Source: a bacterium
Lineage (GTDB): Bacteria; Actinomycetota; Acidimicrobiia; Acidimicrobiales; CATQHL01
Length of the DNA: 42,377 nt
NCBI GenBank assembly: GCA_026708055.1
Contig: JAPOVS010000050.1
Span: forward strand, 1-42,377
Direction of reading: 5' to 3'
Under the pieces are notes generated by a model. That model did no database searches and was not told the origin of the DNA. It saw only the letters and a list, made by a program, of their open reading frames with translations. Both the position numbers and the translations under genes were made by a program. Below, in pieces: positions 3,514 through 23,201 of the stretch (within the stretch, counting starts at the first letter, position 1; every line of letters starts with the position of its first letter).

Positions 3514-3554
3514 CGACAAGACGCTAACACCCGCCGCCCGGCCCGCCGGCGGCC

Positions 3555-3890
3555 GGGCCGCTGCTGGAGACCTTCACGGTGAACGAGATCGCCCGCCAAC
3601 TCTCCGCCTCGGCGCGGGACTGCGCGCTCTGGCACTACCGGGACAATCAGGGCCGCGAGGTCGACCTCGTTCTGGAGGACTCCGGCGGCGCCGTGGTCGC
3701 CGTCGAGGTGAAGGCGACCCAGTCCCCCGATCCCCGCCAACTCCGACCGCTCGCCTGGCTGCGCGACCGCCTCGACGACGTCGCGCCTGGCGCCTTCCGG
3801 GCCGGCCTGCTGCTCCACACCGGCGGCCAGTCCGGCAAACTGGACGACCGCCTCCACCTGCACCCCATCGACTCCCTCTGGACGGTCTGA
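3555..3890 (+). pseudogene. C-terminal remnant of a DUF4143 (AAA) ATPase
   Basis: The frame opens with GPLLETF-TVNEI, the motif normally found just before the C-terminal nuclease-like domain of DUF4143 ATPases, and continues with WHYRDNQGREVDLVLED and VVAVEVKATQ (a PD-(D/E)XK-like Asp plus Glu-x-Lys). It ends normally at 3888-3890 with about 110 residues left of ~400; the P-loop, Walker B and middle domain are gone. A GTG at 3579 might give a 103-residue product, but nothing suggests it is functional. The same family has two intact copies at 18633-19916 and 21717-22973. Its left edge lies just upstream of the divergent AbiEi-like gene, so a deletion or insertion probably joined them. Confidence 0.8.
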
Positions 3891-5490: not shown

Positions 5491-7464
5491 TCAGGAGTCG
5501 GATGGAGGAGGCGACGCCGCGAGGTTGTCGACGCCGACGTAGAAGAACTCCCAGGGTTCGGGATCGGGTCCCTGGTTCTCGATTCCGGCGGGGTAGCTCG
5601 GTATGAAGCCGTGCCTCTTGGCCTCGAGGAAGTTGTCGGCGGCCAACCAGGCGTACGCGTCGGAGTGCTTGAAGTCGTTGATCCCGTACCCGGGTGTTTC
5701 CAGATCCACCGCGTACCCGGTCTGGTGACGCGAGTAACCGGGTGGCGCAACCACTCGGAGTGCTCGCCGGATCCTCTCGCTCGTGAAGGGCTCCTTCAGG
5801 TGGCGGAACAGCAGGAACCTCTGGACGTCGAATCCACGGTAGGCCGACCTCAGGATGAGTTGATGGCCTGCGTGCCGGGCCGCCGCGCTGAGAGACCCGT
5901 AGGCGCGTGCCGCCTCGGGTTGCAGCAGCTTCTGCTCGACGCTCACCAACTCGTCCAGGGAGGCGACCGCAGGCTGCAGCCGGTATCCCCGACCCTCGGC
6001 GACCTCGCCGATGCGCTCGTCGGTCTGCACGTCGCCGGTGATGGTGGGTGCGCCGGCAATGTCCACCAGGTTGGGCAGCCTCACCGAATCGAGCAGTTCC
6101 TTGAACTGTTGAGCCGAGAATCGCCGCATCCCCGCGTCCTGTTGCGCGGCGGATGTCGATGTGTCCCCCCGAACTGATGTGCCCCGTGGAGGCCTGAGGT
6201 CGTAGGGCGACGTTCCCTCGTACCGCTCGCAGTCGCCCTCGATGAGGTCATTGAGCCGGTCGAGTCGCCAGCCCGCGCCGGCCGGTCGCGGTGCGCCGTT
6301 CTCGTCGAGCAGGTGCGGATGGAACTCCCATCCGACGATCCGGTCGCCGGCGAAGTCGATCTGCAGGACGCCCGTCTCGCCCGTTATGCCCATTCTCGGG
6401 TGCCACACGAAGTTGCCCAGCGAGTAGGCCGCCAACTTTCCGTCGTCGAACTCGATGGCCTGCAGGACGTGCGGATGGTGGCCGATGACGGCGTCGGCGC
6501 CCGCGTCGAACAGTTCCTGTGCGAACGCCCTCTGCTCGGCGCTCGGGCAGGTGGCCACTTCGATGCCCCAATGGACGTTGGCGATTACGACGTCCGCCTC
6601 GCCGGCGGCGGTTCGTACGCTCTCCAGGACGCGTTCGGGTTCGGTGTCGGTGGCGATGCCGGGCGAGTCCGCGCCGGCGGGGAAACTCCGGGGCACGATC
6701 CTCGACACGCCGACGAATGCCACCGTCACGGCCCCGTGGACCTCCAGGAGTCGGTGCCGGAACGCCTCGGTGTCGTTGGCGCCCGCCCCCAAGGCGACCA
6801 CGCCGGCGGCCTCCAACGAGGCGATCGTGTCGGTCAGCGCCACCGGGCCGTAGTCCTTGGCGTGGTTGTTCGCCAGGTTGGCGACGTCGATCCCGGCGTC
6901 GCCGATCCGCTTGGCCGCCGACGACGGGGCGCGGAACGTGAACTTCTTGCCGACCGGCGCGCCGCGGTCGCTGATGGCCATCTCCACGTTCACGACGGCG
7001 AGGTCGCCGGAGGCCAGGGGCGGTTCGATGCCCTCGAACGGGTCGATCCCGGCCGGCTCGGTGCGGTCCATCTGCACGTCCCCGCCCGCAAGCAACGTCC
7101 ACTCCGGCGGTGCCGGGACGGCGCTCGGTCCGGCGGGCGTCAGGGGCGAGCTGGTGAGCCAGCGTCCCGGCACAGCGTCGGCGGGGATGAGCCGTCTCGT
7201 GGGCAGTTGGCGGGTTCCCCAGGTCCCCTCGCGCCGCTGCTGGAGCGCGAGTTCGATGCTCCCGCCCTCGAGCTTGCGCACGGCGATGCGTACCTGCAGG
7301 CCGGCGATCGGCAGGGGCGAGCTGGTGAGCCAGCGTCCGGGCGTGGCGTCGGCGGGGATGAAGCGTCTAGCCGGCAGGTGGCGGATTCCCCAGGTCCCCT
7401 CGCGCCGCTGCTGGAGCGCGAACTCCACGCTCCCGGCGTCGAGCACGCGCGCCGCGATGCGCAC
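5491..7464 (-). CDS. CapA-type phosphoesterase-like protein fused to an M15 VanY-like peptidase domain, with two surface modules
   Basis: 657 residues counted from GTG 7464; the frame continues upstream through a signal-peptide-like segment without a usable start (see 7569-7581). Residues 1-51 and 57-108 are two copies of the LQQR/LP-x-RR-x-IPA/GRWL-x-SSPL module also present in the CAP protein at 619-1833. Residues ~120-385 are a CapA (poly-gamma-glutamate synthesis type, metallophosphatase fold) domain: GGDVQMDR (D129), NVEMAISDRG (E161), NLANNHAKDYG, HWGIE (H298), GHHPHVLQ, YSLGNFVW. Residues ~445-650 resemble D-Ala-D-Ala carboxypeptidases: SAYRGFDVQ, then SRHQTGYAVDL (H580, D587), then EPWEFFYVG. 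In the last motif the usual third zinc ligand His is Glu (E639). Probable role is cell-envelope polymer or peptidoglycan processing outside the membrane. Exact substrate unknown. Confidence 0.8.
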   Translation of the reverse strand: MRIAARVLDAGSVEFALQQRREGTWGIRHLPARRFIPADATPGRWLTSSPLPIAGLQVRIAVRKLEGGSIELALQQRREGTWGTRQLPTRRLIPADAVPGRWLTSSPLTPAGPSAVPAPPEWTLLAGGDVQMDRTEPAGIDPFEGIEPPLASGDLAVVNVEMAISDRGAPVGKKFTFRAPSSAAKRIGDAGIDVANLANNHAKDYGPVALTDTIASLEAAGVVALGAGANDTEAFRHRLLEVHGAVTVAFVGVSRIVPRSFPAGADSPGIATDTEPERVLESVRTAAGEADVVIANVHWGIEVATCPSAEQRAFAQELFDAGADAVIGHHPHVLQAIEFDDGKLAAYSLGNFVWHPRMGITGETGVLQIDFAGDRIVGWEFHPHLLDENGAPRPAGAGWRLDRLNDLIEGDCERYEGTSPYDLRPPRGTSVRGDTSTSAAQQDAGMRRFSAQQFKELLDSVRLPNLVDIAGAPTITGDVQTDERIGEVAEGRGYRLQPAVASLDELVSVEQKLLQPEAARAYGSLSAAARHAGHQLILRSAYRGFDVQRFLLFRHLKEPFTSERIRRALRVVAPPGYSRHQTGYAVDLETPGYGINDFKHSDAYAWLAADNFLEAKRHGFIPSYPAGIENQGPDPEPWEFFYVGVDNLAASPPPSDS

Positions 7465-7568
7465 CTGCAGGCTCTCGTCGTCGTCCGCCGCGGCCGCGGT
7501 GCTGAGGACGCACGACGCGACGACGGCAGCGACCAGTGCGCACCGGAGGCGGCTTGGAGCGATCCGCC

Positions 7569-16622: not shown

Positions 16623-17401
16623 CCGGCAACGGCGCGGGACTTGCGGGCCACGACATCCGCGTGACCTTCGGGCGGGGCCACAACGCCTTCAATGCCGTGG
16701 AGGGTGCCGACATCGACGTGGCCGAGCGCGAGGTCGTCGGACTCGTGGGCGAGAGCGGGAGCGGCAAGACCACGCTCGGCAAGGTGCTGGCGCTACTGCA
16801 TCGGCCGACCCTCGGGGAGGTCAGCTACCGCGGCGAACCTCTCGAGATGCCCCGCGGCGGTGCCCGCAGCGAGGTGCGCGGGCAGGTGCAGATGATCTTC
16901 CAGGACCCGTACTCCAGCCTGAACCCCAAGCAGCGGGCGATTCACGCCGTGGCCGAGGTGTTCCAGGTCTGGCAAGGCGTGTCCCGATCGGCGGCCCGCG
17001 GCTCGGCGATGGCGCTGCTGCGCGAGGTCGGGATCAGCGAGGAGCAGGCGCGGCTGTTCCCTCAGAGCCTCTCCGGCGGGCAGCGCCAGCGGGTGAGCGT
17101 CGCCCGCGCCCTTGCCGTCGAGCCACGCATCCTGATCGCGGACGAGCCCACGTCGTCCATCGACCAGTCGGCGCAGGCGCAGCTGCTGGTGCTGCTCGGG
17201 CGGCTCCAGACCGAACGGGGTCTAGGAATCCTGCTCATCACCCACGACCTGCGCCTGGTCCGCAGCTTCGCCGACCGGATGTACGTGATGCGCCGCGGCG
17301 AGTTGGTCGAGAGCGGCCCCACGGACGATCTCTTCTCGCGCCCGCAACACCCCTACACCCAGGATCTGATCGACGCGGTCCCCGGCGGGATGTTCGGTTG
17401 A
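16619..17401 (+). CDS. Dipeptide/oligopeptide ABC importer ATPase (DppF type)
   Basis: 260 residues from GTG 16619. Walker A GESGSGKTT, QMIFQDPYSSLNPKQ, signature SLSGGQRQRVSV, Walker B ILIADEPTSSID and ITHDLRLV are intact. It is shorter than many DppF proteins because the C-terminal Cys-rich extension is missing; it ends PYTQDLIDAVPGGMFG. The last 92 bases (17304-17395) recur almost identically at 20007-20098 (one mismatch), and a more diverged copy lies at 21126-21200. The stop at 17401 is therefore the left boundary of an apparent insertion zone. Confidence 0.9.
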   Translation: MTGNGAGLAGHDIRVTFGRGHNAFNAVEGADIDVAEREVVGLVGESGSGKTTLGKVLALLHRPTLGEVSYRGEPLEMPRGGARSEVRGQVQMIFQDPYSSLNPKQRAIHAVAEVFQVWQGVSRSAARGSAMALLREVGISEEQARLFPQSLSGGQRQRVSVARALAVEPRILIADEPTSSIDQSAQAQLLVLLGRLQTERGLGILLITHDLRLVRSFADRMYVMRRGELVESGPTDDLFSRPQHPYTQDLIDAVPGGMFG

Positions 17402-17437
17402 ACCACCGAGGCGTGCCGGACCACTGCCCGCCGCGGA

Positions 17438-18352
17438 TCACCGGAGGGCCGGCGGGATGGGCTGCTTCCAGAGGCGGACCGTGAAGCGGTGCTCCTCCTC
17501 CACGAGATCCGGCTCGGTGCCGTTGTGGGCGCGCATACCCGGGATGATCTTGTTGCGGACCCCCATGCCGCGGGCGTCGACGTAGCGGTAGTCGCGCATG
17601 ACGTTGACCAACGTCTGATTGCGGGCGTAACGCAAGCCGGCTCTCATCCCTTCGACGGTCACGGTGTTGGGCAGCCCGCCGGGGCTTTGGATCTCCAGGC
17701 GGTCCGCATAGACGGTCAGCATGATGTCGGCGCCGGCAATGCTGTAGTCGCGGTGCACGAGCGCGTTCACGACGGCCTCGCGGATCACGCTCTCGGGGTA
17801 TTCCCAGCTGTCGATCCGCCGGGCGCCCTCGAGCCGCGATGCAGGCGTCGTGTTGCGCCGGACGAAGTCCCATGCCTGCTCCACCAGGCCGGGCTCCGCG
17901 AGCGAACCGTCGGCGGCCCGAAGCGGGAGCATCGGAGCGCGAAGATCCTCATCGGCGCGCGTGGCGTAGTCGGCCTCGGTGCCCGGGTAGCAGATCGCGC
18001 GGATCCCCGACTGGGGGACGAACCGCTTCGGGTTCCTGCCGAACAGCAACAATCCCTCGATCGTCGCCACGGATTGGCCGGCGGATTGCGTCATGAGATC
18101 GATGTTGGCCAAAAGGGTCCGCAGGTCTTCTTCCTCGCCGCCCCACGGATCGACGTCGTGGCCCACCGCGGCGAGGTAGTCGCGCAGCCGGCGGGCGTCA
18201 AAGGCGTCCAGGTCGGCCCCCGGCACGGGCTTGAGGCCGTACTGCAGCCGGCCCGATGCCTGGTACATCCTCTCGAGTTCCTCCGTCCGCACGGTTCTCT
18301 CGAAGGCCCGACCCCTATGGCGCGCCGGCCGGCCCGATGAATCCCGGCGCAC
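17438..18352 (-). CDS. AlbA/Schlafen-associated ATP-binding transcriptional regulator-like protein, 5'-truncated
   Basis: 304 residues if started at GTG 18352. The family normally has an N-terminal AlbA_2 DNA-binding domain, a linker, then an ATPase-like C-terminal domain (HATPase_c_4). Here the linker TEELERMYQASGRLQYGLKPVPGADLD and the C-terminal half (IREAVVNALVHRDYS, DRLEIQSPGGLPNTV, GMGVRNKI) are intact, but the ~110-residue AlbA_2 part is missing; upstream bases (18353-18508) have no matching frame. It runs convergent to dppF and lies next to the 23-bp repeat array. Members occur in defence islands and as regulators; with the DNA-binding part gone it is likely a remnant. Confidence 0.7.
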   Translation of the reverse strand: MRRDSSGRPARHRGRAFERTVRTEELERMYQASGRLQYGLKPVPGADLDAFDARRLRDYLAAVGHDVDPWGGEEEDLRTLLANIDLMTQSAGQSVATIEGLLLFGRNPKRFVPQSGIRAICYPGTEADYATRADEDLRAPMLPLRAADGSLAEPGLVEQAWDFVRRNTTPASRLEGARRIDSWEYPESVIREAVVNALVHRDYSIAGADIMLTVYADRLEIQSPGGLPNTVTVEGMRAGLRYARNQTLVNVMRDYRYVDARGMGVRNKIIPGMRAHNGTEPDLVEEEHRFTVRLWKQPIPPALR

Positions 18353-18508
18353 CTCTGACCAAGACAGCCTACGCGCCCCCGCGCGCCGCCGCCGGCGCGG
18401 CTCTCGTCCTCGACGTCTGCGGGGTGCGGCCGACAGCCTGATGGCGCAGGCGCCGGACGACGCTCCCGTGCCCGTCGCCGAACCGATTGGAACTGCGGTA
18501 TGAGACCA

Positions 18509-18611
18509 GAACGCGCAATGATCAATCTTTAGGACGCGCTATGGTGAATCTTCAGAACGCGCTATAACTAATCTCTAGAACGCGCTATAGTTGGCCGCTG
18601 GAACGCGCAAT
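18509..18611 (+). repeat. 23-bp tandem repeats (4.5 units) upstream of a DUF4143 ATPase gene
   Basis: Units start at 18509, 18532, 18555, 18578 and 18601 (partial), each opening G(A/G)ACGCGC(T/A)AT. The first three continue with a block ending AATCT-x-x-A. Within units, TATGGT, TATAAC and TATAGT resemble actinobacterial -10 hexamers. Sequence outside the first ~11 bases varies, while spacing is exactly 23. The array ends ~20 bases before the GTG start at 18633. An array with the same period lies upstream of the other intact DUF4143 gene at 22975-23066. Confidence 0.85.
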
Positions 18612-18632
18612 CGATCTCGGGGCAAGGCCGTT

Positions 18633-19916
18633 GTGAGCGAGACGCTGGCAACACTCACGATGCCCGGGCACCTTCCGCGTCTCGTGGACGCCGACGTGGA
18701 GAGTGCTCTGCGGCGGCGGGGGGCAGTCCTGATCGAAGGTGCCCGCGGCTGCGGCAAGACTTGGACCGCCCGTCGTTTCGCCCGCAGCGAGGCCCGGCTG
18801 GACGACGAAGGGACCTTGCTGCTGGCCGCGTCGGATCCCGCGGCGGTGTTGCGAGGACCCACCCCTCGCCTGCTGGACGAGTGGCAGAACGCGCCGCGGC
18901 TATGGAACCGGGTTCGGCGCGAGTGCGACGACCGTCCCGGGAGCGGTCACTTCATCCTCACCGGCTCGGCAACGCCGCAGGACGACATCACCAGGCACAC
19001 CGGTACGGGACGCATCAGCCGGGTGCTGCTGCGGACGATGTCCCTCTGGGAGACGGGGCATTCCAGCGGCGCCGTGTCGATCCGGGGGCTGTTCGACGGT
19101 GAGACGGCTTCGTGCCTGCCCGAGGAGACCCGAGGGCTGCGAGAGATCGCCGCCCTCATCTGCACCGGCGGCTGGCCGCAGAACCTTGAGCAGGACGAGC
19201 ACGACGCGCTCCGGTCGCTCGGCGACTATGTGAACGAGGTCATTCGGCTGGACGTTCCCGCAGCGAACGGTGTCCGCTTCAACCCGGCCGCCGTGCAACG
19301 GCTGATGCTGTCGGTCGCGCACAGCATCTCCACCGAGGCCAAGATGACGAAACTGGCGTCGGACATGAGCACCGACACGATGCCGAGCCGCAACACCGTC
19401 GCCGCGTATCTGGAAGCGCTGCGGCGCATATTCGTCGTGGAGGATCAGCCCGCGTGGTCGGTGAACCTGAACTCGAGGGCGACCCTGCGGAAGGAGGCGA
19501 AGCGCCACTTCGTCGATCCCTCGCTGGCAGCGGCCATGCTGCGAGTCACACCGGATCGTCTGCTCTCGAACCACGTCGTGTTCGGCCAGCTGTTCGAATC
19601 GCTGACGGTCCGGGACCTCCGGATCTACAGCGGGGCCGACCGCGGCAGCGTGTACCACTACCGGGACAACACCGGTCTGGAGTCCGACGCAATCATCGAG
19701 CGCACCGATGGTTCCTGGATCGCGGTCGAGGTCAAACTGAACTCCGGCGCCGCGTCGGTCGACAGAGCGGCGAGGTCGCTGCTCAGGCTCAGGAACAAGG
19801 TGGCGCTTCAACGTCGAGACGAGCTGGCCGCTCTCTTGGTCGTGACCTCCACCGGTGCCGCCTATCGCCGCCCCGACGGGATCCAGGTAGCTCCCATCAC
19901 GTCTCTCAGCCCCTGA
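18633..19916 (+). CDS. DUF4143-family AAA ATPase with C-terminal nuclease-like domain
   Basis: 427 residues from GTG 18633; GGGGCAAGG upstream can serve as Shine-Dalgarno, and the preceding repeat array argues against the longer frame. After HLPRLVDADVESAL comes Walker A EGARGCGKTW, Walker B PRLLDEWQ, sensor HFILTGS, the middle DUF4143 region (YVNEVIRLDVPAANG, ending FGQLFESLTVRDL) and the C-terminal PD-(D/E)XK-like fold (YHYRDNTGLESDAIIE, IAVEVKLN). The family is widespread and mobile, with no settled biochemical role; some members are thought to be toxin-like or defence-associated. All core motifs are intact here. It is the cargo gene just left of the duplicated dppF tail at 19938-20103. 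Confidence 0.8.
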   Translation: MSETLATLTMPGHLPRLVDADVESALRRRGAVLIEGARGCGKTWTARRFARSEARLDDEGTLLLAASDPAAVLRGPTPRLLDEWQNAPRLWNRVRRECDDRPGSGHFILTGSATPQDDITRHTGTGRISRVLLRTMSLWETGHSSGAVSIRGLFDGETASCLPEETRGLREIAALICTGGWPQNLEQDEHDALRSLGDYVNEVIRLDVPAANGVRFNPAAVQRLMLSVAHSISTEAKMTKLASDMSTDTMPSRNTVAAYLEALRRIFVVEDQPAWSVNLNSRATLRKEAKRHFVDPSLAAAMLRVTPDRLLSNHVVFGQLFESLTVRDLRIYSGADRGSVYHYRDNTGLESDAIIERTDGSWIAVEVKLNSGAASVDRAARSLLRLRNKVALQRRDELAALLVVTSTGAAYRRPDGIQVAPITSLSP

Positions 19917-19937
19917 TCAGCGAGAATGAGGGGACCG

Positions 19938-20103
19938 ACTCATCACGCGCGACCTGCGCCTCGTCCGTCGCTTCGCTAACGGGTGTAGGTGATGCGTCAG
20001 GAGCACTGGTCGAGAGCGGCCCCACGGACGATCTCTTCTCGCGCCCGCGACACCCCTACACCCAGGATCTGATCGACGCGGTCCCCGGCGGGATGTTCCA
20101 CTG
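19938..20103 (+). pseudogene. Second copy of the dppF 3' end
   Basis: 20007-20098 matches 17304-17395 at 91 of 92 bases and still reads ESGPTDDLFSRPRHPYTQDL to a stop at 20101-20103. The part before it (19938-20006) aligns more loosely with dppF from ~17237 (RDLRLVRRFA versus HDLRLVRSFA) and is 2 bases out of register, so the frame is broken. The copy has no start and cannot encode an ATPase. Its first half is closer to the third copy at 21126-21200. The following 150 bases to 20259 hold nothing I recognise. Confidence 0.85.
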
Positions 20104-20259
20104 ACGCCAGTGAGTGGCAGTCAACCACATCACACCTGCGGCGGGCGTAGTTTCGAACCTGTGCCGACGGCAGCCGCAACAGCCAAGGCAAGATCGTCAA
20201 GGCGAGAGACAGCCTGGAGGTCGAGGCGGCTGACCTGCTCCACAGGTTGCGTCGGTGAG

Positions 20260-20790
20260 TTATCCGACTCGCGGCTTCAACAGGTGTCGGCGGCTTCGCT
20301 CATCGGCGATCGTTGCGATGCAAGCCATGTCGAGCTGTTCGGGGCATTGCTGCCTGGCCGACTCGAGTGAGGCGACCGCTCGGTGGGCGAGCGACACCGC
20401 ATCCGTGGCATCACGCTTCGTGCACAGGTAGCTATGGTCGTAGTCGGCGAGTATGCGGCGGGTGTAAAGGGCGTCGAAGTCCTCTGCGAACTGCAGCAGA
20501 TCCTCGTGGCACGCGGGCTTGCCGAACAGCCACGGAACCGTCCCGGAAGCCCGCAGATTGCGGCAGACGGTCCGAGCGGAACCGTGGCTCGCCAGTCGAC
20601 GCACGGCATGTTGTGCTTCGGTACTCGGGAAGTGGTGAGCGATTTCCTGCGTCAGCGCGGCGAATGCTGCGTAGTACGCCGTCGAAATCGCGCGCCGGAG
20701 CCGCGCGGGCGATGGTCGCCCCCGTCCTTCGGGCATGAGGTGCTCGGCCGCCTGCAAGAGCCCTTCGGGATTGAGACCGGTTGCCGCCAT
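20260..20790 (-). CDS. HEPN-like protein, possible toxin
   Basis: 176 residues from ATG 20790. ARLRRAISTAYYAAFAALTQEIAH is the typical first helix of HEPN-type helical bundle proteins; DLLQFAEDFDALYTRRILADYDHSY and AVSLAHRAVASLESARQ form the other helices. The classic R-x4-6-H RNase motif is not evident, so RNase activity is uncertain. It starts 7 bases after the stop of the 104-residue gene at 20798-21112, suggesting a two-gene unit like HEPN/MNT modules, though the partner does not look like a nucleotidyltransferase. It is bounded on both sides by dppF-tail copies. Confidence 0.6.
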   Translation of the reverse strand: MAATGLNPEGLLQAAEHLMPEGRGRPSPARLRRAISTAYYAAFAALTQEIAHHFPSTEAQHAVRRLASHGSARTVCRNLRASGTVPWLFGKPACHEDLLQFAEDFDALYTRRILADYDHSYLCTKRDATDAVSLAHRAVASLESARQQCPEQLDMACIATIADERSRRHLLKPRVG

Positions 20791-20797
20791 GTGTCGG

Positions 20798-21112
20798 TCA
20801 GGCTGGCTGCAATTGCTCGCCGCGTTGATGTCCCGGTTCGGACAACTCCTCTGGGGTGCGGAACAGGCAGTGGACTGTGGCGATGTCACCGACGGCTGCG
20901 TAGGTTCGCCGCCGGTATCCGTCCAGTTGCTCCAACGGCCATTCAGCATCGTCGAGCGCCGGAAGTTCCCAGGTCGCCAGAATGATCCACTCGTCGTCGT
21001 ACTCGAAGTCCGGCTCGACGGAGACGTACCGCACGCGTGCCACGTCCCCGTCCGACTCCAATTCAGCGTTGAGGTTCTCGAAAGCACCCTTCGCCTGCTC
21101 CCAGCGCTGCAT
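20798..21112 (-). CDS. Unrecognised small partner of the HEPN-like gene
   Basis: 104 residues from ATG 21112. I do not recognise the family. The protein is acidic, begins WEQAKGAFENLNAELESDGD and contains DEWIILATWELPALDD, WPLEQLDGYRRRTYAA and VHCLFRTPEEL; alternating hydrophobic strands and one helix suggest a small alpha/beta fold. Immediate linkage to the HEPN-like gene (7-base gap, same strand) suggests an antitoxin or regulator. No DNA-binding helix-turn-helix and no GS-x(n)-DxD nucleotidyltransferase signature is visible. Confidence 0.55.
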   Translation of the reverse strand: MQRWEQAKGAFENLNAELESDGDVARVRYVSVEPDFEYDDEWIILATWELPALDDAEWPLEQLDGYRRRTYAAVGDIATVHCLFRTPEELSEPGHQRGEQLQPA

Positions 21113-21125
21113 ATCGAGATTCTAT

Positions 21126-21205
21126 CTGCGCCTCGTCCGTCGCTTCGCTGACGGGTGTTGGTGATGCGCCAGAAGCACTGGTCGAGAGCGGCCCCACGGA
21201 GGAGA
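21126..21205 (+). pseudogene. Third, short copy of the dppF 3' end
   Basis: 21126-21200 aligns with 19954-20028 at about 71 of 75 bases, including substitutions and a 2-base deletion not found in dppF itself, so copies 2 and 3 share a common history. After CCCCACGGA the similarity fades (GAGATCTTCGCC versus CGATCTCTTCTCGC). It lies between the start of the small HEPN partner gene and the end of the HigA-like antitoxin gene. Confidence 0.75.
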
Positions 21206-21227
21206 TCTTCGCCGGTTGCGCCTGCGC

Positions 21228-21515
21228 CTACGAGGCCGCCGCGCGAAGCCTGAGTCCGAGTGCCTGCACCACCCGGAGGACGGTGCCGAACTCCGGGTTG
21301 CCGCTCGGCGAGAGCGCCTTGTAGAGGCTCTCTCTCCCCAGTCCTGCCTCCTGAGCGACTTCGGTCATCCCCTTGGCTCTGGCGATGTCGCCGAGCACGG
21401 CTGCCACGAGCTTGGGGTCGTCCTGCTCAAGTGCCGCCTCCAGGTAGGCGACCATGTCCTCACTGGTCTCCAGGTGCTCCGCCGCGTCCCACGGCCGGGC
21501 CTCGGCTCCTTTCAC
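21228..21515 (-). CDS. HigA-like addiction-module antidote protein
   Basis: 95 residues from GTG 21515. EDMVAYLEAALEQDDPKLVA, then ALGDIARAKG-like VLGDIARAKGMTEVAQEAGL, then GRESLYKALSPSGNPEFGTVLRVVQALGL form the helix-turn-helix and preceding helices of the putative addiction-module antidote family that pairs with RelE-fold killer proteins. The GTG overlaps the toxin stop (GTGA at 21515-21512), the toxin-first order typical of this family. The antitoxin looks complete although the toxin is truncated. It probably binds its own promoter, but the native upstream region is lost. Confidence 0.75.
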   Translation of the reverse strand: MKGAEARPWDAAEHLETSEDMVAYLEAALEQDDPKLVAAVLGDIARAKGMTEVAQEAGLGRESLYKALSPSGNPEFGTVLRVVQALGLRLRAAAS

Positions 21516-21716
21516 AGCGTGTCCTCCTGCAAGTCGTTCGCGAGTTCCCGTGCTCGCCGGATGTCCCGACCCTGGCTGTCCTTGTCGCCGCCAGCGAGCA
21601 GGACGATCAAGGATCGGCCCCTTCGCGAAAAGTAGACCCGGTATCCGGGCCCGTAGTCGATGCGGAGTTCGGAGACACCTCCCCCAGCCGGTCTTGCGTC
21701 ACCGGGGTTTCCCGGA
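21512..21716 (-). pseudogene. 5'-truncated RelE/HigB-like killer protein
   Basis: The frame reads NPGDARPAGGGVSELRIDYG, then PGYRVYFSRRGRSLIVLLAG, then GDKDSQGRDIRRARELAND and stops at 21512. This is the last ~65 residues of a ~100-residue RelE-fold toxin; the first part (start Met to first strands) is absent. The missing 5' end is replaced exactly by the 3' end of the DUF4143 ATPase gene, whose TAA at 21717-21719 abuts the remnant. No start codon gives a full toxin, so it should be inactive. Confidence 0.8.
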
Positions 21717-22973
21717 TTATCGGTGCCAGAGGATGCTGATGGGTGCTGCCCAGATACTGTCGCTCACGTCGCTTCGGATGTTGCTGACGTAGCGACCGGT
21801 TGTGAGCACCAGCCCGAGCCTGAACCTGTCCCCGAGTCGTTGCGCCAGCCATTCGATGTGCTTGATGTCAGCGGGTCTGTGCCGGTTTGCCGACTTGATC
21901 TCAACCGCCACGATGCCCCCGTCGTCGGTTTCGATGATGCCATCGATCTCATGGGTGCCCTTGTGGGTGCGAAGATGACTCAGCGCATCCTGCCTGTCGA
22001 GGGCCTCGAGTTCGGCGCGGATCTGACCGAGGGCGAATGTCTCGATGATCCTCCCGTAGAGATCGCCGTTCAGCTTCAACCGGGACAGCGGCACCTTCAG
22101 CGCTGCAATCAGCAAGCCGGAGTCACTGAACAGCATCTTCGGAGACTTGGCCAGGTAGGGAATGTCGTCACTGATGAACGCCGGAACCTCGACGGTTAGG
22201 TCCAGATCAAGGAGGATGTGCCGGTAGTCGCGGTGGGTTGCCGGATTGACCTTGGCTGCGCTGCGCAGGCTGCCGTCCTCGGGAGACCGTGCGGAATGAT
22301 GGGCGGCAGCGGTGAGGTATCTGTTGAAATGGGAGGCCGAGCGCCTCGATCCGAAGAGTGGCAGGTCGCGTCGCAGGAGCACTCTCAGGTAGTCGCGGCA
22401 CCATGTCTGCGAATAGGTTTCAGAGCCGCCGGCTGCACACTCGGGGTAACCACCGACCGCGGCCATGTCCAAGTATTCGAAGATGTCGGGTGTCTGTGCC
22501 GGCCGGGCCGCAGGCGGCGTGCCCGACAGTAGATCGACGACTGCGTCGGCCTGTGACGGCGGAGCGACCCGCAGACTCCTCTCGCGCACCGTCATCGGAT
22601 TGAGGCGGAGAACCGCTGCCCGGCCGGTGAGTGCTTGGATCTCCGAACGGCTTTGAGGCTCGGGTGACCCGGTGAGGATGAACCGGCCCGGCCGGCGGTC
22701 CCGATCGACGGTGCGCTTGATCGCCCGCACCACTTCGGGGGCCAACTGCCACTCGTCCACCAAGAGCGGCTCTTGGAACTGCCCGAGGGCGGCTTCGGGG
22801 TTGTCCTGGAATACGGTGACCGTGGCCGTGTCGTCGAAGAACGCGCACGACTTGGCCAACTGCTGGGCCGTGGTCGTCTTGCCGACGCCGCGGGCGCCCG
22901 TCACCAGCACAACGGGGTGGGTCCGGAGAGCCCGGGCCAGTTGGGCGTCAACGAGCCGAGGAATATAGTTCAC
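21717..22973 (-). CDS. DUF4143-family AAA ATPase with C-terminal nuclease-like domain (second intact copy)
   Basis: 418 residues from GTG 22973 (N-terminus NYIPRLVDAQLARAL, canonical for the family). Walker A TGARGVGKTT, Walker B LLVDEWQ, RFILTGSPEPQ, the middle domain (WCRDYLRVLLRRDLPLFG, YLTAAAHHSA, GDLYGRIIETFALGQI) and C-terminal nuclease-like motif (EIDGIIETDDGGIVAVEIKS) are intact. It is quite diverged from the copy at 18633-19916, so this is not a recent duplication. The repeat array begins 1 base upstream of the GTG; the nearest unit carries TACGAT 7 bases before the start, a layout expected for a leaderless transcript. It appears inserted into a HigB-like toxin gene. Confidence 0.85.
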   Translation of the reverse strand: MNYIPRLVDAQLARALRTHPVVLVTGARGVGKTTTAQQLAKSCAFFDDTATVTVFQDNPEAALGQFQEPLLVDEWQLAPEVVRAIKRTVDRDRRPGRFILTGSPEPQSRSEIQALTGRAAVLRLNPMTVRERSLRVAPPSQADAVVDLLSGTPPAARPAQTPDIFEYLDMAAVGGYPECAAGGSETYSQTWCRDYLRVLLRRDLPLFGSRRSASHFNRYLTAAAHHSARSPEDGSLRSAAKVNPATHRDYRHILLDLDLTVEVPAFISDDIPYLAKSPKMLFSDSGLLIAALKVPLSRLKLNGDLYGRIIETFALGQIRAELEALDRQDALSHLRTHKGTHEIDGIIETDDGGIVAVEIKSANRHRPADIKHIEWLAQRLGDRFRLGLVLTTGRYVSNIRSDVSDSIWAAPISILWHR

Positions 22974-22974
22974 G

Positions 22975-23066
22975 AAGCTTATCGTAGCAGTTCTCGGCGC
23001 ATTATCATAGCAGTATTCGGAATACTATCCTAGCAGCGTTCAGAGCACGGACGCAGCAGTATTCGG
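22975..23066 (-). repeat. 23-bp tandem repeats (4 units) abutting the start of a DUF4143 ATPase gene
   Basis: Four units in gene direction occupy 23066-23044, 23043-23021, 23020-22998 and 22997-22975. Each opens C(C/T)GA(A/G)-x-x-CTGCT or GAACGCTGCT, and three then show TAGGAT, TATGAT or TACGAT, good matches to a TANNNT -10 box. The core GAACGC(T)GCTA is close to that of the array at 18509-18611. The array ends directly at the GTG start, leaving no room for a Shine-Dalgarno. The remaining ~135 bases to 23201 show nothing else recognisable. Confidence 0.85.
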
Positions 23067-23201
23067 ACGCGCTCCCGGCTCTGCCTGGGTGCCGGTGAAC
23101 CATGTCGTGGTCGTCGTCAGTGCTTCGGCGCTGCCGTCGGCGAAGGGTTACGATCCGCGGCGGGGTGTGGCACCTGTTCCCGAAAGGCGAGGCGTGAAGC
23201 C

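Follow-up and report, generated by a model that had tools for sequence, protein, structure and literature searches.

Two AAA_14-DUF4143 genes with 23-bp repeat arrays

The window (the whole 42,377-nucleotide stretch of DNA that we analyzed) contains two genes of one protein family, and each is preceded by an array of 23-bp repeats. Gene 2 (21717..22973, reverse strand) encodes a protein of 418 amino acids with an AAA_14 ATPase domain, a predicted winged helix, and a DUF4143 domain of the PD-(D/E)XK type; it belongs to the PDC-S01 family. Array 2 (22973..23064, reverse strand) lies upstream of this gene and has four units: GAATACTGCTGCGTCC (23064-23042), GAACGCTGCTAGGATA (23041-23019), GAATACTGCTATGATA (23018-22996), and GAGAACTGCTACGATA (22995-22973). 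A first-pass annotation had proposed four units with a period of 23 bp here, reaching the start codon, and both points hold. Lag 23 scores highest among lags 12–60 and is matched by none of 500 local shuffles, and the last unit abuts the GTG at 22973. A -10-like TACGAT had also been placed 7 nt before this GTG, and we confirmed it at 22986-22981 on the reverse strand, with no Shine-Dalgarno sequence in the gap; we predict that it belongs to a leaderless promoter. The first of the four units lacks the TANGAT element.

Array 1 (18508..18622, forward strand) is also real. It has five 23-bp units with the core CAGAACGCGCTAT and lies before gene 1 (18633..19916, forward strand), which likewise encodes an AAA_14-DUF4143 protein of the PDC-S01 family. 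The probable start of gene 1 is the GTG at 18633; the mechanically called open reading frame begins at 18591. The two proteins are 30% identical. We dropped the idea of a core common to the two arrays because their similarity is at chance level: without gaps it does not exceed that of column-permuted arrays (p = 0.83), and with a 1-bp gap the pair ranks in the top 9% of the genome's pairs, which is unremarkable. When we searched the genome for the cores, as had been suggested, neither formed an array anywhere but at its own gene, and elsewhere we found just single matches with 1–2 mismatches. We also rejected a CRISPR array: the 23-bp units are contiguous, with imperfect cores of 12–17 bp separated by about 6–11 variable bases, rather than identical repeats with unique spacers between them.

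A putative STAND-type ATPase fused to a putative nuclease

Genes 1 and 2 encode proteins that match DUF4143 (PF13635; 87.3 and 115.9 bits, with a cut-off of 28.1) and AAA_14 (PF13173; 64.4 and 41.5 bits, with a cut-off of 27). PADLOC's model for PDC-S01 (PDLC04790) gives a full-length match (E = 2.6e-95), and 84/84 proteins match it. Apart from a weak P-loop match, NCBIfam has no family for the two proteins. A sequence search of the PDB found no solved homolog, and its matches were mostly limited to the P-loop region.

In a structural model of an AAA_14-DUF4143 protein (pLDDT 93.5), we recognize an ATPase domain; a winged helix made up of helices 213-225, 235-240, and 244-256 and a wing at 260-282; and a C-terminal PD-(D/E)XK domain. 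Among solved structures, the closest in fold are 2qen (Z 14.7, rmsd 4.4 over 249 residues), 2fna (Z 14.0, rmsd 4.1 over 245 residues), and NLR/CED-4 proteins. As modeled, the protein has the ATPase, helical, and winged-helix domains of the STAND/archaeal-type ATPases. The modeled C-terminal domain resembles McrC (Z 9.8, rmsd 3.2 over 120) and Can2 (Z 9.1, rmsd 3.9 over 124). In its D...ExK motif, the E and K are invariant and the D is present in at least 90% of the sequences. The predicted fold and the motif place this domain in the PD-(D/E)XK superfamily, as a putative nuclease.

PDC-S01 was described as an ATPase fused to a PD-(D/E)XK domain, and it is reported to be the fourth most common candidate defense system of prokaryotes, with 29,494 bacterial and 9,986 archaeal instances detected; for most such candidates, validation by experiment is pending (PMC12988326). 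The profile and the architecture are the same here, and the upstream arrays are the feature that we add. We found no literature that links DUF4143, COG1373, or PDC-S01 to repeats or upstream arrays (preprints were outside the scope of this search).

The arrays accompany the family across phyla

There are 47 matches to DUF4143 in the genome. Among its 39 testable AAA_14-DUF4143 genes, 27 have an array with a 23-bp period at their start (p ≤ 0.01), and in 25, the top-scoring lag is 23 or 46. Summed over the family's genes, the score at lag 23 is 579, whereas the median across lags is 185. Control regions 350–660 bp upstream or within these genes gave 178–197 for the same statistic. From a control set of 48 regions upstream of other genes, we removed two strong scorers at lag 23, which are neighbors that overlap the window's own arrays; a lag-23 array was found in just 1 of the other 46. 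The window's pair are two of about 30 such pairings of array and gene in the genome. The unit sequence differs from one pairing to the next, and this generality was missed by the first-pass annotation. An iteron plasmid replicon was considered and rejected, as Pfam identifies ATPase families and DUF4143 only, and the genome has about 40 dispersed copies.

In a pooled set from this genome, seven congeners, and further genomes of the order, 62/116 genes have arrays. The first-pass annotation had noted that homologs elsewhere without arrays would speak against its proposal. At least 120 bp upstream was available for 80 homologs, 79 of them in public genomes and one on a viral contig. Of these 80, 67 carry an array, including 26 of the 33 from outside the Acidimicrobiia. 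Homologs with arrays are found in Gemmatimonadota, Gammaproteobacteria (Pseudomonadales), Bacteroidia, Lachnospiraceae, Clostridia, Chloroflexi, and Spirochaetaceae. The period is 23 in Mycobacterium riyadhense and Lentilactobacillus hilgardii (L286) as well. It is 22 instead in plasmid homologs from rhizobia, Sulfitobacter, and Sphingomonadaceae (L276-L281, L283, L285, and L287), which form one alphaproteobacterial clade with full support. One of these, RHE_RS29360 on p42f of Rhizobium etli CFN 42 (L277), and the L. hilgardii homolog are from cultured relatives and have clear arrays. Phages were rejected as the carriers, as we found homologs in just 7 of 50,697 phage records, along with the one viral contig.

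About a third of the genome's family genes lack an array, so it is not required by every member of the family. Most of these genes are in separate deep clades. Neither of the two homologs in Thermus thermophilus HB27 has such an array, and we rejected this strain as a model. In one of these (L295, which is TT_RS11170 on pTT27) and in another relative without an array (L297), there is a conserved palindrome, TGAATGACTATCATTCA, immediately before the start codon. It may represent a second kind of operator within this family.

Unit sequences are private to gene lineages

The units are not palindromic, are arranged head-to-tail, and usually number 3–6 per array. Their sequences vary from one gene lineage to another; examples are TTTCACGGTAGA, AATCCCTACACTGA, CGTCGAAATGGTTCAGAA, and TTGCCAAAACAGGGAAT. 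Among orthologs, the core is kept, with variation in copy number and in the rest of the unit. The similarity of two arrays is 0.73 if the proteins are at least 80% identical, 0.62 at 70–80% identity, 0.41 at 60–70%, and 0.27 below that. The reverse-strand control is 0.26, so below about 60% identity the arrays are alike only at background, and there is no universal motif. Judged by these comparisons, the unit sequence is private to the gene lineage and conserved among orthologs only. We also discarded a supposedly distinct array at one locus (L078): the distinct array is the one further upstream, and the array near the gene has the same core as that of L007.

Neutral tandem duplication, with no function for the arrays, would account for the identical adjacent units in some of them (L146 and L151). 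However, it would not be expected to yield an identical period in over 100 different arrays from several phyla or to spare the regions upstream of other genes, and the fact that diverged orthologs (63–72% protein identity) have kept their cores contradicts it. We give this explanation almost no weight.

Array sequence covaries with the winged helix

After regressing out overall protein identity, array similarity tracks the identity of the winged helix (r = 0.29, or r = 0.45 for pairs with 60–90% identity). The corresponding values are r = -0.20 for the ATPase domain and r = -0.11 for the nuclease domain. The best block of 25 residues is 231-255, which corresponds to helices 2–3. The winged helix outranked the other domains in 471 of 500 bootstraps, and none of 2000 random sets of columns of the same size reached its value. 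We relied on bootstraps and random columns in place of window-wise permutation: a node-permutation null by window, with few close pairs, was noisy, and the winged-helix signal was not significant under it. Because the sequences share descent, these statistics are guides and not probabilities, and the covariation is a correlation across related sequences.

Between ten proteins whose arrays have the CAGAACGCGCTAT core and five sister proteins with CCTAGAATGTAGT or similar, there are four fixed column differences. Two of these are in the winged helix, and one is a charge reversal, from R255 (or H) to E/D. The arrays indicate that a large part of the PDC-S01 family probably consists of sequence-specific DNA-binding proteins.

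The last unit usually seems to hold a promoter

We searched the last 40 bp of each array and the 20 bp beyond it for a -10-like hexamer on the gene strand. It was present for 81/108 genes, compared to 49 ± 4.6 in shuffled sequences and 41 on the other strand, and it was absent from this zone for the remaining 27. Among 61 cases from the genome and its relatives, the hexamer was 6–8 nt before the first in-frame start in 13 (including gene 2), with 5.6% expected, and it was never at 9–14 nt. These positions suggest that the last unit usually holds the promoter, which is often leaderless. Farther afield, in Gemmatimonadota, the TTGAAA that precedes TAGTCT by 17 bp comes from the last unit itself, and a member of the Lachnospiraceae has TTGCTA-17-TATAAT in the last two units, at an identical phase. 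The period of 23 is also the distance from -35 to -10, and this coincidence may or may not be meaningful.

The first-pass annotation had suggested that array 2 was a stack of leaderless promoters or operators. The leaderless promoter of the last unit has statistical support, but a stack of promoters with no dedicated binding protein is not supported. Such a stack would explain the -10-like hexamers in several units of gene 2's array and their enrichment in arrays generally. On the other hand, many units lack a -10, and the unit sequences are gene-specific even though promoters need not differ; they also track the winged helix of the gene product. We consider this reading very improbable. Since the conserved part of the unit is gene-specific, tracks the winged helix, and need not include a -10, the units behave as protein-specific operators, with a single promoter at the end. 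Each array is a candidate operator in that it is located at its gene's own promoter signal and is private to that gene.

Array and gene form a cassette

Both cassettes in the window are within an accessory island (17403..23187) that is missing from a congener (G004), where 17402 is joined to 23190. Gene 1 and array 1 are 87–89% identical to copies in two congeners, and the flanks are unrelated. Between relatives in different places, the homology covers array and ORF alike and goes no further than the stop codon in 15/17 pairs of orthologs, as judged by eye. The idea that gene and repeat are a functional pair that moves as a cassette, first raised from the window alone, is now strongly supported by these limits and by the frequencies of 27/39 and 67/80 given above. 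Another cassette (L020) is located between two convergent genes, and the same genes are adjacent, as an empty site, in four congeners. In a fifth congener, this site is occupied by a MazF gene and an orphan array.

These observations could indicate that the ATPase and the nuclease recognize the array for self-spread, in the manner of homing or transposition. The different locations of the cassettes in congeners, the sharp limit at the stop codon, the empty sites, and the duplicated 3' ends of neighboring genes at two sites all fit this idea. But the junctions that we read show neither terminal repeats nor target duplications of fixed length, and the 3' ends of the cassettes have no sequence in common. 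Also, orthologs are mostly 80–90% identical, so they are not recent copies, and orphan arrays persist after the gene is lost. Ordinary horizontal transfer, together with selection for a minimal unit, explains the limits of the cassettes, and we think that a mobility site is quite improbable.

Several features of the junctions were seen along the way. Extra copies of the 3' end of an ABC-transporter gene are found at 17240-17402, 19939-20104, and 21126-21210, flanking the inserted modules, as if each insertion had duplicated or replaced the end of this gene. A toxin-antitoxin pair (21229..21713, reverse strand) has a RelE/HigB-type toxin whose N-terminal part has been lost precisely at the point where gene 2 has its stop codon; the pair is intact in another congener (G007). 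At one locus in a congener (L271, G006:C485), there are two arrays without genes, namely a degenerate GAATCTGTACA array and a second array of three units that adjoins a MazF gene, and the 3' end of the neighboring gene is duplicated.

The arrays may be autoregulatory operators

Our preferred explanation, to which we assign a probability of roughly 60%, is that each array is a private autoregulatory operator: the ATPase-nuclease would bind its own array head-to-tail, via the winged helix, and repress its own promoter. One protomer or oligomer would bind per 22- or 23-bp unit. As a unit is about two turns of DNA, successive protomers would be on roughly the same face and could stack head-to-tail via their AAA+ domains. 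If the array were fully occupied, the core promoter in the last unit(s) would be covered, which would keep a potentially harmful nuclease at a low level, until some trigger, perhaps infection or incoming DNA, led to release. We assume repression rather than activation. A genome can have tens of paralogs, so each array would have diverged along with its own winged helix, which would keep the circuits separate. The array and the ORF would be inherited and transferred as one minimal cassette.

Alternatively, the array might be primarily a platform for assembly, with iteron-like nucleation of an AAA+ filament that stores, senses with, or activates the nuclease, and with regulation of its own promoter being secondary. 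The head-to-tail arrangement of 3–6 non-palindromic units with a period near two helical turns would suit a filament, and a period of 22 or 23 that is specific to a clade fits a geometry set by protein-protein contacts. The predicted fold is also near those of STAND/NLR-type ATPases, which are known to oligomerize. However, the array is located at the promoter of its own gene and is nearly absent from the rest of the genome, which is what regulation predicts. We view a primary role in assembly as possible but unlikely. More speculatively, and in our view doubtful, filaments of tens of ATPase-nucleases on their private arrays could be gene-specific sensors, so that a disturbance, for instance by invading DNA, by replication of that DNA, or by a phage protein, would activate both the gene and the nuclease. 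If so, these would be self-addressed and mutually insulated immune modules whose DNA specificity is free to diversify.

The autoregulatory reading has parallels in known systems. Iterons are sets of direct repeats, each about two helical turns long, before the gene for the protein that binds them, and they take part in autoregulation. The arrays are like the iterons of plasmid replication initiators in having direct repeats of about two turns before the gene, but here the protein is a DUF4143 AAA+/nuclease with tens of chromosomal copies per genome, each copy has its own repeat, and the promoter seems to be in the last unit. MalT-like STAND regulators act on arrayed sites, and MalT activates other operons. 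The ATPase fold is related (a structure from the maltose system, 8bob, is among the best Foldseek matches), but our arrays are private to their own genes, and the protein has a nuclease-like domain. Autoregulated toxin-antitoxin operons combine a harmful product, a private operator over their own promoter, many paralogs, and mobility. Here there is instead a single gene with tandem direct repeats rather than palindromes, and no antitoxin.

As for a role in defense, which we suspect, a plasmid homolog from Sulfitobacter (L285) adjoins a restriction endonuclease gene and qatA, which is a single case, and several homologs adjoin toxin-antitoxin genes, again as individual cases. In Thermus thermophilus HB27, TT_P0211 (DUF4143) was 6.6-fold up with a plasmid in Argonaute-positive cells (PMC4406477), which fits induction by foreign DNA. 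TT_P0211 is probably TT_RS11170, which lacks such an array, so this result is not evidence about the arrays.

The arrays provide a first starting point for experiments on a candidate defense gene that is uncharacterized although very frequent. They indicate the DNA target expected for each protein and the part of the protein that is expected to recognize it. With over 100 natural pairs of protein and site, the function, regulation, and specificity of the family are directly testable, and many regulator-operator pairs that are apparently orthogonal become available.

Other features of the window

The window also has a fragment of a DUF4143 gene at 3544-3890 on the forward strand. It has an open frame of 120 amino acids, and its DNA is 91% identical to a complete copy in G007 (L088). 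At 7130-7472, a unit of 171 bp is present in two tandem copies (85% matches), with long open frames on both strands.
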